NCBI GenBank assembly: GCA_036939975.1
Contig: JALLPB010001036.1
Coordinates: 1 to 11,595 of the forward strand
Length of the DNA: 11,595 nt
DNA from: Cyclostephanos tholiformis
Lineage: Eukaryota; Bacillariophyta; Thalassiosirophyceae; Thalassiosirales; Thalassiosiraceae
Direction of reading: 5' to 3'
Position numbers and translations under genes: made by a program. Below, in pieces: positions 1,038-11,595 of the stretch (positions are counted from its first letter, which is position 1; every line of letters starts with the position of its first letter). The notes under the pieces were generated by a model. The model made no database searches. It was not told the DNA's origin and was given only the letters and a program-made list of their open reading frames with translations.

Positions 1038-1555
1038 CAACAACTCGAGAACAGACAGTTTGCTAAGGCTAACCTTGCCACTCTCCCTAACTCAGAAGAG
1101 ACACAATATTTTCTTATGCCCACCCAACTGACCGCCATTGCAAATTCTGAGCACATGAACAACATAGCCATGATGTACCTCCATGATAGCGACACCCTAC
1201 AACATGGCATCCTAGATGGCACAATCCCATCTGCCACAGCAGACAATGGCGCCACATCCAGCATTGGCACCAAACGTGACTCAAAAAACTTTCTCCGGAC
1301 CCCAATGGCAGCATTGAGAGTGCATCAGGAATCAAACAGTTGGCCTTGGGAGTATGAGCACTAGCACACAACATACACATCACACCAGGTATTGACAAGA
1401 CATCCCTCATCAGCACAGTCAAGTTTGCAGTGGCAAACTAAACCACCATTTTTGACAAAAATTAAGTCTATGTCTATGACCAAAACAACACCAACATCAC
1501 CGTTTTGCATGCAGCAGTCCTCCATGGATGGTGCCAACCCAGCACTAACAACCTC
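1038..1555 (+). pseudogene. pol: Protease region of the old copia element, broken by insertion
   Basis: The frame is open from 1038 and carries SATADNGATSSIG. The aspartate at 1242-1244 and the D-N-G-A-T sequence correspond to the D-S-G-A active-site loop of copia proteases, with Ser changed to Asn. The protease normally cuts the polyprotein inside virus-like particles. Around 1290-1300 the frame shifts and then reads GIKQLALGV, AHNIHITPG, SLISTVKFAVA and TIFDKN, with stops at TGA 1352-1354 and two TAA codons near 1437 and 1463. It then reads VYVYDQNNTNITVLHAAVLH up to the target duplication. These are the usual blocks between protease and integrase in such polyproteins. The frame continues exactly at 6687 beyond the nested element. 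No gag sequence is recognised upstream. Confidence 0.75.
1551..1555. repeat. Target-site duplication, left copy (ACCTC)
   Basis: ACCTC lies immediately before the first base of the left LTR and is repeated exactly after the right LTR at 6682-6686. Five base pairs is the usual duplication made by Ty1/copia integrases. With one copy removed, the host element's reading frame resumes without a shift. Confidence 0.93.
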
Positions 1556-1772
1556 TGTTGAAAAGATGTCAATTTGACGCTAAATGCATGACATTGTATT
1601 GTTAAATGAATTAAAAGAAGTGAGCTCTCGTGCTCATTTCTATTCTCTACCCTTCCCTTTCTTAGCTGCTCCAACCTGCCATGTCAGAGCTACAATCCTG
1701 TCTACGTCAAGATTTCTCCCTGTCTGTCTGTCTGTCCCCCACCAGACATGCTGATTTCCATTCTCCTCAACA
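1556..1772 (-). repeat. 3' LTR of the younger copia element
   Basis: It is 217 bp, beginning TGTTGA and ending CTCAACA in + orientation, so the ends are short inverted repeats with the TG...CA rule. Ungapped comparison with 6465-6681 gives 17 mismatches by my count (about 92% identity), 14 of them transitions. It contains a run of four TGTC units near 1718-1736. The pol reading frame runs into it and stops at TAG 1640-1642. The sequence just inside it on the minus strand (ACAGGAGCG) is only weakly purine-rich, so the polypurine tract is poor or mutated. Confidence 0.93.
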
Positions 1773-2399
1773 CGCTCCTGTGGTGTCTTGGAGGGAGTCA
1801 TGATGACCCTCTTCCTTGACACCATCTTCCGGACACGAATGGGCTGTGTTATTTCTTCCTCTGGCGGGTCCTCATAATTCACATCACAATTCATCAGTTC
1901 AGCTCTCATCACCCTGAATGCTGTCCCCTGGAGTGGCTTAGTCATTATATCTGCCCACATCTCCTCAGTCGGGCAGTTGATCACCTTTATTTCTCCATCA
2001 TCTACCCTGTCCTTGATGAAGAAGAACTTAGCTTTTACCTTCTTGGTCCTCTTTACACTTCTTGACATCTTACCGTTCTTTATGAGCAGCTGAGTGCTGA
2101 TATTGTCTTGGTACAGTCCCACACATTCCGTCTTGTATCCCTGCGCTTGAATGAAATGTAGAGACCATAAGATCTCAGGCATAAACATGTCTGCCATCAC
2201 CAGTTCTGTTTCAGTCAAGCTCCTCGTGTTCAACTTCAGCTTCCTCAAATAACTTGAGGTCACCCCTCATCCCAATGAGAACACTGCTCCCCCGTGCCCT
2301 CTGCAGTCCTCCCAGTGTACATTGTGTGACCCATCCACATACCACTTTAACATCGATAGGTTATCCATGGTTAATCTTAGTTTCAAATACTTTGTTCCG
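1640..2399 (-). pseudogene. pol: RNase H domain of the younger copia element
   Basis: RNase H degrades the RNA of the RNA/DNA hybrid during reverse transcription. Three acidic residues typical of the copia RNase H are visible: Asp in WYVDGSHN (2333-2335), Glu in LTETELVMADM (2204-2206) and Asp in LYQDNISTQLL (2105-2107). The end also matches family style, with FFIKDRVDDGEIKVINCPTE, then ADIMTKPLQGTAF. An in-frame TGA at 2267-2269 splits it between the first and second acidic blocks. The reading frame then crosses into the 3' LTR and stops at 1640-1642, so the last ~43 residues are encoded by LTR sequence. Apart from the stop it is one of the best kept parts of the element. Confidence 0.85.
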
Positions 2400-3543
2400 T
2401 TGAGATACTTCAGTACGTGTTTTAACTTGCCCCAATCGTCTTCGTCCGGGCTTTTCACTCTCGTCATGAGGAATGCCACCGCTGTTTGAATATCTCATCT
2501 GGCTCCAGTTGCCATGAACAGCAACTGTGCTACCGTGCAGTGGAATGTCAAGGCCTGCTCCTTGTTTAGCTTCCTTGCATCCTCCTCATCTCTGACAACA
2601 AACAACTTATCGTGCGCCGGCGTTGCCGCTCGCCCCCTGATCACTTCCGGGAATTCGTTGATCTCATTTTTGAGATATTTAACCATAGAGACCTCCAGTG
2701 CTCCGTTGTCGCAGAATTCCATGTCCACCCCCAGGTAGTCATGTTTCTTTCCCAATTGCATGCTCAGGCTTGGCCCGCATATCTTCCGTAGCATGAGAAC
2801 TTTGTCAGTTCAAAATTGTCCTTGCATGATGCCATGAGATCATCCACGTGCCACACCACTGTCAGTTGCTTCCCAGATTTTGTCTCTGGGTTAGCCACAC
2901 ACGGGTTGTAAGGATTGATCACCAGTCCATATTGTTCGAATTCCTCTCTTAACTTCCTGTAAAAGAGCAGGCTTGCCCTTATTAGCCCGTATAGCGCCTT
3001 CTGGAGTTTCCCGTAGAGGGTTGGTGTCCCCTTCCTGTCTACTGTCACATATTTTCTGTACACCTCAGGAGCAATCTGGGTCATCAAGTTCGCCAGTTCT
3101 CCCTTGAGCACCATTATGACATCCTCGTCCACATTTGTGTTCATGAATGTGCTGGGTACATCGTAGCACCTCACCTTCCTTCCTTCCTTGGCTGCTATGG
3201 TTGCGGTAATGAACATCAATTCCATTGATACAGTAGGAGATGCGGCATCATCTTTTGGGATGTATGTGTGCTGAGGTGCCCCATTAATGCATGCCCTTCC
3301 TTTGACATCTCCGGTACGTTTCTCCTTGAGGAAGAGCAGCAAGGATAGTGCTCTCATCCTTTGCTCCCGCGACAGCTTCCTTGCATCCATAGGGGTCCAC
3401 ATGTCCATGATGTGCAGCTGGGTCATCTCCTTCAACGCAGCTTTCTCCCCTTGTGTGCCAAATTTACGCAACTCGGGTTTCAAGTTATATTGCATCAGGA
3501 TGTATGCCATTACTCCTAGCTCTTCTTCTGATGTCGTGCACAT
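2400..3543 (-). pseudogene. pol: Reverse transcriptase domain of the younger copia element
   Basis: This is the copia-type RT (RVT_2 family), which copies element RNA into cDNA. Visible blocks in order: LKEMTQLHIMDMWTPMD, LLFLKEKRTGDVKGRACING, CYDVPSTFMNT (first catalytic Asp at 3160-3162), KLQKALYGLIRASLLFYRKL, and VVWHVDDLMASC. The last holds the catalytic Asp pair at about 2839-2844, where HVDD stands for the usual YVDD. Then follow KKHDYLGVDMEF and AQLLFMATGAR. The frame shifts near 2790, just after the active site. TGA at 2495-2497 splits GAR*DIQTAVAF, where related proteins as I recall them have Arg, which would fit CGA to TGA. The upstream frame is separated from the integrase tail by TGA 3547-3549. 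Catalytic residues survive but the protein cannot be made whole. Confidence 0.88.
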
Positions 3544-3549
3544 GGCTCA

Positions 3550-4710
3550 ATCCATCCAATGTGTCACGTCATCCACAAAAGGTTCTGATGTTGTAGTTGT
3601 CATCGCCAGCAATTGCTTTTCCTTTGGCATTCTTGCCAGTCTATTTGCCTGGAGAACACTCCTGTGTGCTCGCACTGTTCCGAGCTGTAGAAAGGTGATG
3701 CGTGGGGTGTACTTGTTGTATGGTTGGTTGCCAACCGCACTCCTGCAAGCTTGTGTCAAATAACGTTAACCATCGATGGGAGTGTCTTCAGCATCTGCAG
3801 CTATCACGACAGCCGTGTTGTCATTCCTATCTTCACCCAATATGATCACGCGATTGCCCTCCATTGGTGCCAGCCCCGCATTGGGTAGGTCAAATGTTAG
3901 CTCATATACAAGCTCATTGTCCTCGGCTTCAACCGCTGCTGGTCTAGGTGGTGTGTTCTCTAGATTTGCACACCAAATAGCCTTGTCTGCATTGATCCCG
4001 GCATTGTATTGCGCATCTCCTGCTAAATCACGGAAGTCGGGCTCAGGTTTGTCCGTGAGTGTCTGGAAATCTTGTTGTTGTTCTTTGAGCAACACTCCTG
4101 GAAGCTCAGCACTGATATCAGGATACACTGCCGTGTCCTCAGTTTCATCTAACAACCCTTGGAATTCAGGGTCATCCTCCGGCACCTTGTCAGTCCATTC
4201 ATATGGCTCACCATGTCGGTTCAGAAACCGAAATGTACGACCCTGCTTCTCTCGCTTCCCAATTGCATTCACTCGTTGGATCACATGCTCCAGCATCGGC
4301 ATCTGTGTGAAGGAGCGACGTTTGTGGACTCGACCCGTGTTGATGCAGTAGAACTTTACGCTGCCCTGTAGGTTCCCTATAGGTCCTAACGCTATCACCT
4401 TGTGTGTTTGGGGCATCATCCCGTTTGTTGGGGTGGGTTTGTCGTGCACCTCACAGTATGTACCTGGCTCCACCGGACAGTGCTTCTTGTAGTTGAGGCG
4501 CCAGTGTAACATCAACTCACGCAGTGATATCTTGTCAGACACCCCAGACTTCACTGGGAATGCATTCATCCATAGCGCCATGAAGTAAATGAACTCGATC
4601 TTCATTTGTTGTGGGCAATTCTCAAATGGGAGCATGCTCAACAGCCCCCTCGCTTGCTCCTTCAACATCTGGAGTGCACCATGCTCCTTTGTGTTTGGGT
4701 TTGTTCCCCC
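3550..4710 (-). pseudogene. pol: Integrase C-terminal part and linker of the younger copia element
   Basis: The frame reads MLKEQARGLLSMLPF from 4668, then QQMKIEFIYFMALWMNAFPV, LHWRLNYKKHCPVEPGTYCE, IGNLQGSVKFYCINTGRV and GRTFRFLNRHGEPYEWTDKV. A Glu/Asp-rich linker leads towards RT. These are the blocks that follow the catalytic core in copia integrases. The bases just upstream (about 4690-4710) read NTKEHGALQ, which looks like a stub of the end of the core. The zinc-binding N-terminus and the D,D part of the D-D-35-E core are absent, so integration activity is lost. TAA at 3766-3768 splits DTPIDG from SAVGNQPYNKYTPRITFLQL, and TGA at 3547-3549 splits it from RT. Confidence 0.85.
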
Positions 4711-4744
4711 CCGTGTCAGGGCCTTGTCCTAGTTGCAATAGTGT

Positions 4745-5066
4745 CACTGCACCTTGCTTGATTCTTCAAGATCCAGGTACCAGGTAGGGAAGCCCCTGTT
4801 CATCCTTGTAGAACCAAACCTGTCCCTTTGGCATGTGCATGACATAGTACCCCTGCTAGCTGTTGTTGGCTATGCCATCGGGCAGGTACCACACCTTTAG
4901 GTTCCCTTAGGTTCCTCTCTTGTTCGTGGAGATTGCTCCCACATTACAGTTGATTCGAACTCCTCATGCCTCAGTCTTGATCCCTCTCAGGTACTTGTCA
5001 CTCTTGAAGGTGGTGACGGTTGAACACCCGTCTAGGTATACCCTGCTGTTGGGCAACTCACCCCCT
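4745..5066 (-). pseudogene. pol: Protease region of the younger copia element
   Basis: GGELPNSRVYLDGCSTVTTF then KSDKYLRGIKTEA is read from about 5066 to the TGA at 4964-4966. The Asp-containing LDGCST is the likely counterpart of the D-S/T-G-A active-site loop of copia proteases. Beyond the stop the same frame reads GVRINCNVGAISTNKRGT, a TAA, then GNLKVWYLPDGIAN. At about 4855-4868 it jumps straight to QGYYVMHMPKGQVWFYKDEQ and GLPYL. Related polyproteins, as I recall them, have a block of roughly 18-20 residues between these two, so a deletion of about 55 bp is inferred. The region ends at VTLLQ, where the big integrase deletion begins. A one-base loss in the C run 5061-5065 puts this frame out of step with gag. 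Confidence 0.75.
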
Positions 5067-6435
5067 GTGTAAAAATCACATTCAGCAGCTGGTGTGCATC
5101 CTTGGCTGCCTCCTGAGCAGTCTCTTTGTGTGCTTCCAGATTCATGTGCAGCTGGGATTGCTGTTCCCCACTGAGATGGGGGCATTCATATGCCCAGTGG
5201 CTTGGAGAGCCGCAATTGAAGCAGTGCAACTCGCCCTTACTGTGGGTCTTGCACGTGTCTCCCCCCGTGCATCCTCTGATTGTACTGACATCATTGCCAC
5301 CACTTCCCGAGGATTCCCCTGACCCAGTCTTTGCCTCTGCCTTTGCTCTGTGGCCTTCTTGTCATCCTCTTCCTGTGCCTCGACCTCCTCTTCCTCCGCG
5401 CTGTAGAAACATGACACCTGTCTCATTCCCACTTGCTCTGTAGGGTGCGCTTGCTCTCATGTTCTGGTAGTTCACCAGGATCCTTGCTGCCTTCTCCAGC
5501 GTATCTGGGTAGTGATCCAATCCCAGCAGATAATCATTTGCCAGCTCATCCTTCAGCTTCCCATATTGCTGATGACTTGCTCCACTGATCAGCATCGCCA
5601 CCTTGACTTGCTCGATGGAGACATCCTCTGCCTTGCTCAGCTCTGTGGGGGAAGGATTAGTGATGTTCTTCTCCTCAGCTCTCCTGCCACTAGCCCATCT
5701 TGTATTCCCGGCAATCCACCAAATACCTCAACCATGTCCCACAGGTTTTGGAAGTTCCTCGTGTATTCTTCCATGGTCTCCCTTTCCGATTGAGAGTACA
5801 AGAACAGCATCTTGAGGGATAGTACCAAGTTGAAAACCGACTGTTTATGGTCATCAAACATCAAACCCCACACAAATTTTCTCGATTCTTCTGATTAGCT
5901 TGTGCAATGACTGCTCCAACTTCATGACCTCCCAATCCTTGGTAACCTTCAATTTATCTTGCACCTCTTGCGAGCACTGGTTGTAGACTGTGGCATATCC
6001 CTTCTTCAGGGATTCTTTGAGTTTCTGTCGCCTCTTTGCAACGAATTTGACTATTTCTATGCAAATGATCTCTAGGTCCGCCTCATCTGGGGCATTTGTG
6101 TCGACGGGGGGTAGCAGCGCGATCATTTGCACCCTTCCCATCATGATTGTTTCCGCAATGAGGTAGCTCTCTTCCATCCCCACTCGCTGGATGTATCCCG
6201 CCACTCTTTTTCATGACTCTGTAAACTGTGCAGCAAATTTATTCTTGCCAGTGTTGAAGGTGTGCTTTGCAATTTCCGCAATAGGCAACTCATACGCCTT
6301 GCTCACCACCATGGCGCCTCCTTCCCTCCCTTGGGGGAAGTATCTATGTGGCCTCCTGCCGCCGCCACCACCACCACGTCCCCCTCCTTGCCCGACCGCT
6401 GCCTGCTGGCTCATCTCTCTTGTGCCGTTTGGCAT
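5067..6435 (-). pseudogene. gag: gag with CCHC zinc knuckle, younger copia element
   Basis: Gag forms the virus-like particle and binds the element RNA. ATG at 6433-6435 follows the 5' LTR by only 29 nt. The start is glycine/arginine-rich (GQGGGRGGGGGGRRP), a likely RNA-binding patch. It continues with SKAYELPIAEIAKHTFNTGK, an in-frame TGA at 6211-6213, then VAGYIQRVGMEESYLIAETI, KEICVGFD-like sequence, SVFNLVLSLKMLFLYSQSER, KLKDELANDYLLGLDHYPDT and the knuckle CFNCGSPSHWAYEC (5182-5223). The knuckle is a perfect C-x2-C-x4-H-x4-C. A 7-bp tandem duplication at 5852-5865 shifts the frame, a second indel near 5690 restores it, and TGA 5362-5364 stops it again. After the knuckle the frame is LLNVIFTQG, then breaks at 5061-5065. 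Confidence 0.9.
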
Positions 6436-6444
6436 TCTCCGCTC

Positions 6445-6535
6445 AGCTCACTTCTTTTAATTCATGTTGAGAAGACGTCAATTTGACCCTAAATGCATGA
6501 CATTGTATCATAAAATGAATTAAAAGAAGTGAGCT
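6445..6535 (-). promoter_or_regulatory. Perfect 21-bp inverted repeat spanning primer-binding position and LTR
   Basis: Arms 6445-6465 and 6515-6535 are exact reverse complements over 21 bp, with a 49-nt loop. The first arm covers the 20 bases directly inside the 5' LTR, where the primer-binding site must lie, plus the last LTR base. The second arm is LTR positions 147-167 on the minus strand. No TGG, expected for a site matching a tRNA 3' CCA end, lies in the first bases after the LTR (TGAATTAAAAGAAG). The LTR arm is also unchanged in the 3' LTR. The repeat itself is seen directly. The self-priming role is inferred from the element Tf1. Confidence 0.7.
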
Positions 6536-6681
6536 CTTGTACTCACTTCTATTCTCTACCCTTCCCTTTCTTAGCTGCTCCAACCTGCCATGTCGGAGCC
6601 ACAATCCTGGCTACGCCAAGATTTCTCCCTGTCTGTCTGTCTATCCCCCGCCAGGCATGCTGATTTCCATTCTCCCCAACA
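6465..6681 (-). repeat. 5' LTR of the younger copia element
   Basis: It is 217 bp, beginning TGTTGA and ending CCAACA in + orientation, and is the upstream LTR for minus-strand transcription, so it should hold the promoter. A weak TATA-like AGAATAG lies on the minus strand about 20 bases before position 6535. Just inside the U5 end is ACGTCA followed by the palindrome GTCAATTTGAC (6478-6488), which could be a bZIP-type site, but this is speculative. A second small hairpin (arms AGAAGTGAG and CTCACTTCT, + orientation, about 6525-6550) follows the long arm. Confidence 0.93.
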
Positions 6682-6686
6682 ACCTC
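6682..6686. repeat. Target-site duplication, right copy (ACCTC)
   Basis: It is identical to 1551-1555 and directly abuts the last LTR base at 6681. The next codon of the host element, TGG, starts at 6687 in the frame that was interrupted at 1555. Confidence 0.93.
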
Positions 6687-7938
6687 TGGTGCATCCCACT
6701 TGTGCCCGTGGTGAGCAACATGATGAACAATGACACAATCCTCACCACTCAAGTGCAAACCAAGTTCCTCCCATCACACCCATCTCCCAGCGAAGCCATG
6801 TCCAATGTCTAAGAGCTTAAAATGCAACCCAAAATGATATGATATCTCCATGCTGCAGCAGGATTTCCAACCAAACCCACAAGGCTTAAAGCAGTGAAGA
6901 ATGAATATTATGCCTCATGGCCCGGAATCCGCACAAAAACACCCCACAGACAAACCTGACACTTATGATAGCAAACTTATGCACCCTCACAACAAAAAAT
7001 GTACAATGTCAGAGACAACAAAACCACCCTTAAGATTTACACAGACTAAACTGGGCGTTTCCCCAAGAAATCAAGCCGAGGCAGTCACTATGTTATGGTC
7101 CTTGTTGACCTTGACAGTAATGGCAACCTTGTCAAAGCAATGCATGATCAAACATCAGGCAAAATGATTCATGCATACCAACACATGCTAAACCTACTAC
7201 ATGAATGTGGCATTTGACCAAAGCAACACATCTTGGACAATGAGAGTTCAGAAGATTTTACGACCATCATAAGGAACAATGACATGACTTACCAGCTGTG
7301 CCCCCACACAACCACCAATGCAATATCACTGAGAAGGCCATCCAAACTTTCAAAGTGCATTTTGTAGCCATACTGCGTGGTGTTGACAAAGACTTCCCTC
7401 TCCATCTCTGGTGTCAGCTGCTTAACCTTCTATGTCATTCTAGGATGATGCCCACTGTCTCAGCCTATGCCCACCTCTGGGGCCAACACGATGGCTACAA
7501 TGTTCACCAATTCTCACCACTTGGGTGCCGCTTTGAGACTTACCTCCACCCCACAAACTGTGAGACCTAGGCACCTCACACCGCCATGGGCTACTACATT
7601 AGCAACTCTCATGAACACTACCACTGCCATGAAATTTACATCTCCGACACCCATGCTACCCATGTCTGTGACACCATGTTCTCCAAACACGAGTATCTCA
7701 TGATGTCTACCATCGCCCCTGACATAGCACTCATTCTTGCAGCAACCAACTCTTGGATGCAATAGCCGGCATCATTCCCAAGAGCAGCATCACCAAAGAT
7801 GCCATCCATCAGCTCACGACCATCTTCCACACACCAGCACTTGCCGCCTCCAATGCCACATCAGCTCAAAGAGTGCTGAGGCAAATTGCAGCAACTCAGC
7901 ACCAACAGGCAAAGGAGCAAGGGCCCACCCCACCTTAA
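6687..7938 (+). pseudogene. pol: Integrase of the old copia element
   Basis: Integrase inserts element cDNA into chromosomes. From 6687 the frame reads WCIPLVPVV, then after two stops LHAAAGFPTKPTRLKAVKNE. The core keeps all three catalytic acidic residues: Asp in LKIYTD (7044-7046), Asp in QHILDNESSEDF (7236-7238) and Glu in NITEKAIQTFK (7331-7333). About 31 residues separate the second and third, slightly under the usual 35. Between them sits RGSHYVMVLVDLDSNGNLVK. Later blocks are HFVAILRGVDKDFPLHLW, MGYYISNSHEHYHCHEIYIS and AIAGIIPKSSITKDAIHQLT. Inactivating changes are TAA 7047-7049 right after the first Asp, TGA 7215-7217, a one-base shift near 7295, TAG 7568-7570 (at a position that is Trp in relatives as I recall) and a shift near 7750. 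It joins the protease region without a frame change once the nested element is removed. Confidence 0.88.
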
Positions 7939-8122
7939 AGGGTGAAGAACCCCAAAGATTGGATGGACCTCCATCACATCCCTGCCAGAAGCTGTTTGAC
8001 ATAGATTTCTCAACCAAAACCACATTGCCATATATGACCCAAGACAACAACAATTCACCACTCTCAGCCAACACTCATCAGAAATAAGCTGGTACCATCA
8101 CCCAAGACTACATCTTCACTCG
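7939..8122 (+). pseudogene. Integrase-RT linker of the old copia element
   Basis: A low-complexity, poorly conserved stretch lies between the recognisable integrase and RT blocks. One frame reads HPTLKGEEPQRLDGPPSHP and LPYMTQDNNNSPL before a TAA at 8085-8087. Proline- and Asp/Asn-rich linkers of this kind are usual at this place in copia polyproteins. No domain is seen. Confidence 0.5.
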
Positions 8123-9245
8123 ATGGACATGGCCACAACGAAATCACCTTTCACCCCTCAACAGGCAGCAACTCAGCTCTACCCAGCAAAATTCTGTCAT
8201 GACACAGCATCAGCCATCCTTGATGATGAAACAGGCAATCTCCTTGAGTACTGTCACCTCATAAAGCATCCTAAATACAAGGACACCTGGATGAAGTCAT
8301 TTAGCATAGAGATGCAATGTCTTATCACTACCACCAGAGCAATTGTCTTCAAACCAAAGAGCAAAATTCCCATGGATAAATGTAAAGACATCACACATGG
8401 ACGTATTGTATGCAACTACTGCTCCAGGAAATTGGACCCCTTTTACACATGGATCACCAACGGAGGCAACTTTATCATTTACTCTGATGATTGATGATTG
8501 TGGCACCCCCAGGGTGACATGATCACAGTCAAGTTCCTCCTTAATAGTGTCATATCCACCAACAATGCAAAATTCATGACCATTGACCTCAAGGATTTTT
8601 ACCACATGACACCATGTCCAGTTATGAATATTTCCACATGAATGTTGACCTTTTCCCCCAAGACATAATCAATAAATTCAATCTACAGGTGATTGTTGAC
8701 ACCAATGGCAAAATTTTCTGTGAGGTATGATGAGGAATGTATGGCCTTCCCCAGGCTGGCATCATTGCCTAAGAACTCCTCGAAAACACCTCAAGATTGC
8801 CGGATACAGCCAAAGCAAACTCCCTCCCAGATTCTGGACATACACATGGTACCCGATCTCATTCAGCATTGTTGTTGATGACTTTGGCATGAAATACTTA
8901 AACAAGGACAATGTTGACCATCTCCTCCATGTACTCCAACAAAACTACCTATGCAACACCAACTGGGAAGGCACATGTTATCTCGGCCTCATTCTTTACT
9001 GGGATTATAACAAGAGAAATGTCCACCTCAGCATGCCATCCTACATCCTCAAAACATTGAAGCATTTCACCCACAACAAACCCACTACTCCACAGCATCA
9101 AACACATCTTCACAGAATACCCATGTACCCACCACTATTCCAATATGCCACCCTGGCTGATATCTTGGCCCCTCTCTCCAACAATGACAAAATGTATATC
9201 CAACAGGTGGTGGGCACCCTATTATGGTTGAGCAGTTGATGCAAC
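8123..9245 (+). pseudogene. pol: Reverse transcriptase of the old copia element
   Basis: Blocks in order are FTPQQAATQLYPAKF, AILDDETGNLLEYCHLIKHP, KYKDTWMKSFSIEMQ, VKFLLNSVISTNNAKFMTID and LKDF (catalytic Asp at 8585-8587), then NVDLFPQDIINKFN, GMYGLPQAGII, ISFSIVVDDFGMKYLN and YLGLILYWDYNKRNVHLSMP. The catalytic Asp pair is at 8877-8882, with VVDD for the usual YVDD. Damage includes a 7-bp tandem duplication (8485-8498) with a compensating indel just after, a shift near 8610, two adjacent TGA codons before GMYGLP at about 8728-8733, TAA within QAGIIA*EL, and a shift near 8785 that opens the longest frame (to 9239). The two TGA codons occupy positions that are Arg-Arg in relatives as I recall, so CGA to TGA is plausible. 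Confidence 0.88.
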
Positions 9246-9775
9246 CATCCTTGTTGCTCTCAGCTCCCTCGCATTTGCCCAATCAAACCCACAGAGGACA
9301 CAATGTACCGTACTTTACACCTCCTTGACTATGTTGTCACCCATCCTGACACAATCCTCACCTATGCCAAGAGTGACATGATCCTTAACATTCACAGTGA
9401 TGCATCATACCTTAGCGAGCCAAAAGCACAGAGTCATACAGGAGGACACTTTTTCCTCTCCAATGGAGCCGAGGATGCACCAAACAATGGCACCATCCTT
9501 AACACCTCCCAAATTATCAATCCATCATGACCTCCACTGCCAAAGCCAAACTTGGCGCTCTATACATCAATGCTTGCAAAGCCATCCCTTGTTGCACTCT
9601 TCTCAAGGAAATGGGACACCAGCAGCCACCCACCCCCATCCAGAACAACAATAGCACTGCCCTCAGCATTGTCACTAACAACATCCTCCCCAGAAGAACC
9701 AGGGTCATTGACATGTGCTATTTGTGGCTCCATGACCGTGAGCACCAAAATTATTTCAAATATAATTGAAATCCT
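9246..9775 (+). pseudogene. pol: RNase H of the old copia element, catalytic residues lost
   Basis: The frame reads AVDATILVALSSLAFAQ, then MYRTLHLLDYVVTHPDTILT, MILNIHSDASYLSEPKAQSH and TGGHFFLSNG. After a shift near 9525 it reads STAKAKLGALYINACKAI and PTPIQNNNSTALSIVTNNIL, PRRTRVIDM and WLHDREHQNYFKYN, ending at TAA 9767-9769. The first acidic residue is kept (Asp 9399-9401). The two Glu of the usual T/A-E-A-E motif are Lys (9542-9544 and 9548-9550), and the Asp of the usual D-N-S/T motif is Asn (9647-9649). All three changes need only G to A. A working RNase H would need these residues, so this domain was dead even apart from the frameshifts. Confidence 0.85.
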
Positions 9776-10007
9776 TGACTCACTAATTGTGGAGACTACT
9801 GGACCAAACACCATTGCGCCGCCCACCACTGCAAGAAATGTTCAAGTTTCTCACCTCCAAATTTATTGTGGATGCACTCCGAGCATTTACAAACTGACAT
9901 CCAGCCACCTCCAAAAGTTTCATTGCACCACATATGTCATCAGCCCCAGCAGCATGATGGTGCCCTTCCAATGACACCCACGTACTAGCGCACTTGTCTG
10001 AGGTACT
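9776..10007 (+). pseudogene. pol C-terminal tail of the old copia element
   Basis: After the RNase H stops, a further frame reads GDYWTKHHCAAHHCKKC. This matches the short tail with a Trp-Thr-Lys-His block that closes such polyproteins (compare the 'ADxxTK' end of copia RNase H). Then follow SSFSPPNL and unrecognised sequence to about 9974. There is no other signal. Confidence 0.55.
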
Positions 10008-11427: not shown

Positions 11428-11462
11428 GTAATGCCAGGATGAGGAGTACAAGGATGCTGAGC

Positions 11463-11507
11463 ATGATGATGATGATGATGAGGAGGAGGAGGAGGAGGAG
11501 GAGGAGG
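11463..11507. repeat. Microsatellite (ATG)6(AGG)9
   Basis: Six ATG units (11463-11480) run straight into nine AGG units (11481-11507). In one forward frame (from 11432, no start codon) it encodes an Asp run then a Glu run and stops at TAG 11519-11521. This is too short and repetitive to call a gene. The remaining sequence to 11595 is G-rich, with an eight-G run at its end, and holds no other signal. Confidence 0.95.
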
Positions 11508-11595
11508 ATGTTGAGGTGTAGGGAATGAATTTGAGTGGAGGGGGATGCGGGGGGATTAAAAAAGATCAATTGAAGCAATGGGGGGGGGTCATAGG

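Follow-up and report, generated by a model that had tools for sequence, protein, structure and literature searches.

Self-priming by an element's own RNA is described as demonstrated for the Ty3/gypsy element Tf1 in the excerpted text of two reports (PMC7175516, PMC4600332). According to the excerpt of the first, the first 11 nt of the Tf1 RNA pair with the primer-binding site (PBS), and RNase H cuts between nucleotides 11 and 12 (PMC7175516). For the Ty1/copia superfamily, self-priming of the plant TAR lineage (Houba, Osr-1) was predicted from sequence; as excerpted, the prediction used blastn and at least 10 bp of complementarity between the LTR and a site 0-5 bp inside it (PMC6317226). The initial annotation of the locus presented here knew of no established copia case. 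That statement needs correction in view of the plant prediction, for which experimental proof was not found in the excerpted text (PMC6317226). No report of self-priming for copia elements outside plants was found in the open-access literature, subscription papers being outside the search. As far as this literature shows, self-priming for copia elements has previously only been predicted. Fungal GalEa copia elements likewise have no tRNA PBS and carry a hairpin at that place, the Conserved Hairpin Site; they differ in that the GalEa site is a palindrome, for which the authors, in the excerpted text, give no complementary sequence in U5 (PMC5445492). The CoDi lineages of diatoms are also Ty1/copia elements of unicellular algae, and are compared here by description only, from an excerpt that gives no account of a priming site (PMC2806351).

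In this paper, "the window" denotes the whole analyzed stretch of 11,595 nucleotides from the diatom Cyclostephanos tholiformis (JALLPB010001036.1; contig C1008 of an assembly of 24.95 Mb and 1566 contigs). The arrangement of a Ty1/copia element in this window resembles that of Tf1, Tf2 and Tj1, the Tf1/sushi chromoviruses of the Ty3/gypsy group, in that the PBS lies directly inside the LTR, the LTR ends in CA (as excerpted, PMC10085805), and the 5' end of the RNA would serve as a primer cut by RNase H. On the sequence comparisons given below, we consider it probable (roughly 86%) that the 5' end of this element's own RNA serves as the primer for minus-strand DNA synthesis.

An old Ty1/copia element in the window

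The element occupies positions 1556..6681 of the minus strand and belongs to the LTR retrotransposons of the Ty1/copia type; coding frames broken into short ORFs mark this copy as old. Both an LTR pair of the TG...CA type and a target-site duplication are present. The two LTRs, each 217 bp long (TGTTG...CAACA), are located at 6465..6681 (5' LTR, read 6681..6465) and 1556..1772 (3' LTR, read 1772..1556) and differ at 17 sites, and the duplication ACCTC is found at 6682..6686 on the 5' side and at 1551..1555 on the 3' side. The reverse transcriptase (RT; 2764..3543, minus strand) matches the Pfam family RVT_2 (PF07727) above the cut-off, with an E value of 2.3e-11, and RVT_2 was also found in the relatives L031 and L043. 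Its catalytic motif is WHVDD, and all 10 RTs of one alignment (A2) carry HVDD; the usual motif of copia RTs is YVDD. A gag fragment of 116 aa (5854..6204, minus strand) served as the query for relatives. By Pfam, neither integrase nor RNase H was detected in the five pieces of copia elements scanned; no chromodomain was matched in the pieces scanned either, where Pfam also missed the integrase. In copia elements the integrase lies upstream of RT and RNase H; in L031, at most 378 aa lie downstream of the RT, so there would be little room for an integrase on that side.

Several other features of the window were observed. On the plus strand beside the element (6700-9990), there are decayed coding remnants of retroelement-like character, including ORFs 8123-8494 and 8727-9239, for which no Pfam match was obtained; the element may have inserted into an older one. 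Four tandem-like copies of 38 nt are present at 867-1014, and a simple repeat rich in GAT/GAG at 11452-11514.

Inverted repeat at the LTR boundary

The PBS (6445..6464, minus strand) is a 20-nt complement of a segment in the LTR of the same element, and 14 of its nucleotides (6464-6451) form a conserved core. An inverted-repeat search at this junction returned the arms 6445-6468 and 6512-6535, 24 nt long and 96% matched. Within these arms, the PBS read from 6464 to 6445, together with the last LTR base A6465, pairs perfectly over 21 bp with the LTR arm at 6515..6535 (minus strand, paired from 6535 to 6515), and the 21-mer 6445-6465 is perfectly complementary to the 3' LTR at 1606..1626 (minus strand) as well, where the same arm is unchanged. 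The arm corresponds to LTR positions 147-167, and none of the 17 differences between the LTRs falls inside it. Anchored at the boundary, the complement runs for 21 nt, and no more than 11 nt was reached when the LTR was dinucleotide-shuffled 20000 times. Just inside the LTR, the window reads TGA first, not TGG. The three features on which the initial annotation had been built, namely the 21-bp inverted repeat, an arm unchanged in both LTRs despite 17 differing sites, and the lack of a TGG-type tRNA site at the boundary, were thereby reproduced by the inverted-repeat search with its shuffles (at most 11 nt), by the LTR alignment and by the TGA start of the interior.

By eye, another local inverted repeat with the arms AGAAGTGAG and CTCACTTCT was noticed at 6525-6550 (minus strand), just upstream of the arm and overlapping it, and weaker versions apparently exist in close relatives. 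If transcription began further upstream, this repeat could sequester the primer.

Relatives with the same arrangement

Two gag searches gave 16 and then 63 matches, 30 of the latter with DNA, and yielded 36 distinct places in a sample that leaves out 18 of the 63 matches of the second search. A 5' LTR/PBS junction was readable at 30 of these places and unreadable in C299, C581, C827, C88, C1024 and C334. Eight further stretches of 5' ends added five junctions (C886, C1504:1-610 and C1526 being unreadable), for a total of 44 places with 35 readable junctions in the same genome; an element from another host, L117, brings the number to 36. Both copies on C35 are included, C35b having the arm and PBS of C35a, while LTR matches with no adjacent PBS (C104, C1499, C1168) are left out of the counts. 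The copia groups sampled represent part of the 106 RT matches in the host genome.

Among the first 30 junctions, 22 pair at 15 of 15 positions and 28 at 13 or more. Five of the eight further stretches come from contigs whose RTs are just 33-35% identical to that of the window, and all five junctions obtained from the further stretches have 14 or 15 of 15 pairs. Over all 36 junctions, pairing is complete (15/15) in 25 and reaches at least 14 of 15 anchored positions in 33. The other three, C517 (10/15), C209 (11/15) and C1387 (13/15, and this only when shifted by one base), look like decayed copies. As a control, internal 15-mers taken 30-90 nt further in from 28 elements reached 12/15 at most and mostly 8-9, and 13 or more in 0 of 140 cases. 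When a PBS was matched to the LTRs of other elements, 756 comparisons gave 8-11 of 15 pairs in 583 cases; another 119, between close relatives, gave at least 13. This distribution is the expected one.

The element from the other host (L117, JAJTHV010000262.1) is a copia element with an RT 41% identical, on a contig filed under a Flammeovirgaceae MAG; this contig is probably a eukaryotic contaminant of the bacterial MAG. Its layout is alike, with GAGCTCACTAATTTCTGATAAT upstream and TTATCAGAAATT after the CA end, and 14 of 15 pairs are formed, the LTR end being placed by analogy with only one LTR on the contig. The ends of this contig repeat each other over 249 nt (95%), as though the assembly had run through a circular form or one present in several copies. 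No RT relatives in viral contigs were found by the RT alignment or by searches with the L117 or L043 RTs. In the protein database, 877 RT relatives were found, with no informative names among the 120 matches listed.

The arrangement is not just a relic, because several relatives keep long open frames (C228, 1759 aa; C265, 1718 aa; C811, 1805 aa) and near-identical or identical LTR pairs. LTR pairs were comparable in 13 of the 15 contigs tried. Over the stretch compared, the two LTRs show no difference in C1408 (55 bases), C265 (55) and C811 (72 and 55); identity is 94-98% in C228, C87, C799, C35a and C138, and 82-90% in C221, C740, C35b, C1437 and C449. By eye, the pol frame of three relatives (L021, L022 and L024, on C228, C1408 and C265) apparently enters the LTR and stops at a TAA in the primer arm; the arm would thus overlap the coding end in these elements, in line with the L031 frame, which is open to its end.

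Covariation of arm and PBS

An alignment (A1) of 26 R-U5-PBS rows was made from the first 30 junctions, omitting C35b, C517, C1387 and C209; the omission of the three badly paired junctions flatters the figures of the 26 rows. In these rows, 95.4% of the cells of 16 pairs hold standard pairs versus 64.2% in shuffles, and the covariation score is 0.715 versus 0.161, a value that 0 of 500 shuffles attained. When the partner was slid by 1-3 columns, the score fell to 0.167 or less. Two-sided changes are seen in 14 of the 16 pairs and the remaining two pairs are invariant; one-sided standard changes were found in no pair of the 26-row alignment. When every one of the 36 junctions is used (33 distinct; C517, C209 and C1387 aligned on their CTCA motif), 91.3% of cells are paired versus 61.9% in shuffles, and the score of 0.666 compares to 0.157 shuffled and 0.200 in the highest of 300 shuffles. 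The sequences share ancestry and the shuffle figures are not probabilities, but relatedness is preserved in the slide control. The first base of each row is the predicted RNA start, which means that the rows are placed by hypothesis; the arms were first found by an inverted-repeat search that made no use of this start. RNAalifold, supplied with no structure, recovered 15 of the 16 pairs, all except that at +1.

The initial annotation had named relatives whose arms diverge without compensating changes as evidence against it. The arms change together in 33 of the 36 junctions, while C517, C209 and C1387 have lost or shifted their pairing. Counted pairwise within groups, 214 changes affect both arms, 30 the LTR arm only and 6 the PBS only; these counts come from 31 elements in five groups set by eye with no tree, the pairs are non-independent, and the excess of arm-only changes is left uninterpreted. 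A chance match or a palindrome at the DNA level, with no role in replication, would fit the AT-rich arms; chance is refuted by the covariation as measured against shuffles and slides; the LTR shuffles and the internal 15-mer controls argue in the same direction, and the probability of this explanation is close to nil.

Alternatively, a conserved RNA hairpin could close the leader at the 5' end, acting in packaging, in dimerisation or in the control of translation, with another primer in use. The stem does fold stably: arm and PBS came together in one stem in 10 of 10 strands folded (z -3.05 to -4.69), the strands being a selection from the 30 junctions, trimmed to the assumed start. A conserved hairpin also occurs at the PBS place in fungal GalEa copia elements, with a function given as unknown in the excerpted text (PMC5445492). 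The PBS arm, however, sits directly at the LTR end, and a structural hairpin should tolerate G-U pairs and one-sided changes. Among the 495 cells of the 33 good junctions, 487 hold Watson-Crick pairs and just 2 hold G-U, and no one-sided standard change is seen in the 26-row alignment. The near absence of G-U and one-sided states, unlike that expected for a structural hairpin, argues that the primer is really used. A comparison with 28 sampled tRNA loci offered no alternative primer site either. We regard a purely structural hairpin as improbable.

tRNA priming

Priming by a tRNA is the usual mode of copia elements, and half-tRNAs are used by some copia lineages, as stated in the excerpted text of PMC6317226; the complementarity to the LTR might then be incidental. 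In the host, at least 30 tRNA hits were obtained with 63 of 584 candidates scored; 28 loci were fetched, in which ARAGORN identified 25 genes. The best exact complement between the PBSs and these 28 sampled loci measures 6-9 nt, similar to the 6-10 nt of shuffled PBSs, and a TGG start occurs in 0 of 30 PBSs. A long tRNA match, which the initial annotation had suggested looking for, was not present among the 28 sampled loci, an incomplete set. Moreover, many different PBSs exist within one genome, each of which matches its own LTR. From this sample and the self-matching PBSs, we regard priming by a tRNA or half-tRNA as extremely unlikely.

Predicted start site and length of the primer

The extent of pairing points to a start site. 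A standard pair is found at nucleotide +2 in 25 of 26 sequences and at +1 in only 11 of 26. Position +1 is A in 32 of 33 good junctions, preceded upstream by C in 31 of 33, then by T (24) or C (9), then by C in 26. In the simplest reading, the RNA would start at the A of an initiator, mostly CTCA, so that pairing is kept only for bases contained in the RNA. From this predicted start to the cut, the distance is 15 nt in 32 of 33 junctions and 16 nt in one (C1427), and the 15-nt spacing extends to copia elements with more distant RTs and to the element of the other host. For the window, judging from the pairing boundary and the near-invariant +1 A, we infer an RNA start at 6530 and a 15-nt primer at 6516..6530 on the minus strand, from +1 (A6530) to +15 (A6516), with cleavage falling between 6516 and 6515. 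Just beyond this predicted cut, U+16 pairs with the terminal A of the LTR in 26 of 26 rows, and therefore the duplex spans the cut.

The initial annotation had placed the start at or just before 6535, with a primer of 20 nt cleaved at the LTR boundary. The comparative evidence shifts the start by five bases, to 6530, and the primer length to probably 15 nt. The same kind of primer could nonetheless measure 20 nt or more and start at or upstream of 6535, a variant that does not exclude the main reading. The window pairs over 21 bp, C811 over 22 and C74 over 29, and pairing is unbroken over at least 16 bp (16-29 bp) in 11 of 33 junctions. In the other 22, however, unbroken pairing is lost at or before position 16, where the A is nearly invariant, and this longer form seems unlikely. 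Positions 17, 18 and 19 are still paired in 16, 19 and 16 of 33 junctions; pairing of about half the junctions at these positions is not explained by a strict 15-nt primer, and the boundary has exceptions. The pairings of 16-29 bp would be accounted for if transcription had begun further upstream in some lineages and copying of the primer had preserved this.

Position 16 of the PBS, opposite the predicted +1 A, holds T in 13, C in 10, G in 9 and A in 2 sequences (n=34), C and G each being more frequent than A. A C templated by the cap opposite the start was considered for this position and set aside as too weak.

Proposed mechanism

What the sequences show directly is a conserved geometry, covariation between the arms and a point at which full pairing ends; a tRNA-type site is lacking in the sample. 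The transcription start, the cleavage, the use of the primer and the rewriting of the PBS are steps that we infer from these sequences. Transcription would start at the A of the CTCA initiator (A6530). Nucleotides 2-15 of the RNA would then pair with the 14 nt directly inside the 5' LTR, and U+16 with the last A of the LTR. The element's own RNase H would cut between nucleotides 15 and 16, which would leave the 3' end of a 15-nt primer at the exact LTR boundary, from where U5 and R could be copied. Finally, plus-strand synthesis would copy the primer, and the PBS would be rewritten from the arm. Such rewriting from the primer is suggested by how rarely one-sided changes occur. In tRNA-primed elements, plus-strand copying of the tRNA primer restores the PBS in each cycle. 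The self-priming proposed by the initial annotation is supported by 33 of 36 junctions, by the covariation and by the lack of a tRNA match in the sample.

Comparison with known systems and implications

A geometry like that of Tf1 in a copia element, as the initial annotation had proposed, finds support in a PBS complementary to an LTR arm in an element with an RVT_2 RT. Several differences from Tf1 were observed. The window element has a copia-type RT (RVT_2) whereas that of Tf1 is of the gypsy type, and the primer is 11 nt long in Tf1 compared to a predicted 15 nt in the window family. Tf1 also has "pretzel" duplexes flanking the primer duplex (as excerpted, PMC10085805), whereas none were detected in the window family: the consensus fold of 26 rows shows the primer helix alone, and the exact complement between the 30 nt downstream of the PBS and U5 measures 5.1 nt versus 5.0 nt shuffled (28 elements), in tests that covered the consensus and the whole set rather than clade-specific helices. 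Because its RT is of the copia type, the element is not a member of the Tf1/sushi group. The plant TAR lineage shares the Ty1/copia superfamily and an LTR-complementary site inside the LTR, a likeness drawn by description only (from an excerpt of PMC6317226). It differs in its plant hosts, and, in the excerpted text, its prediction was made without an argument from covariation, start spacing or rewriting (PMC6317226).

One arrangement, fixed in its spacing and strongly covarying, recurs in several copia groups of a single eukaryote and in a copia element from a different host. Self-priming would then either have evolved repeatedly, each time with this geometry, or be ancient among copia elements. 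From the sequence evidence, we lean slightly towards the view that a deep non-plant branch of Ty1/copia was ancestrally self-primed, with a fixed 15-nt primer from a capped CTCA start, and with a PBS that would be rewritten in every cycle because plus-strand synthesis copies the primer. If this is true, the start of an earlier transcript is preserved in each PBS, and the pairings of 16-29 bp would record upstream starts. The model predicts the start, the primer length and the cut site for each family to the base. The scarcity of one-sided changes would be a mark of primer copying that is legible from sequence alone and can be searched for in other elements.
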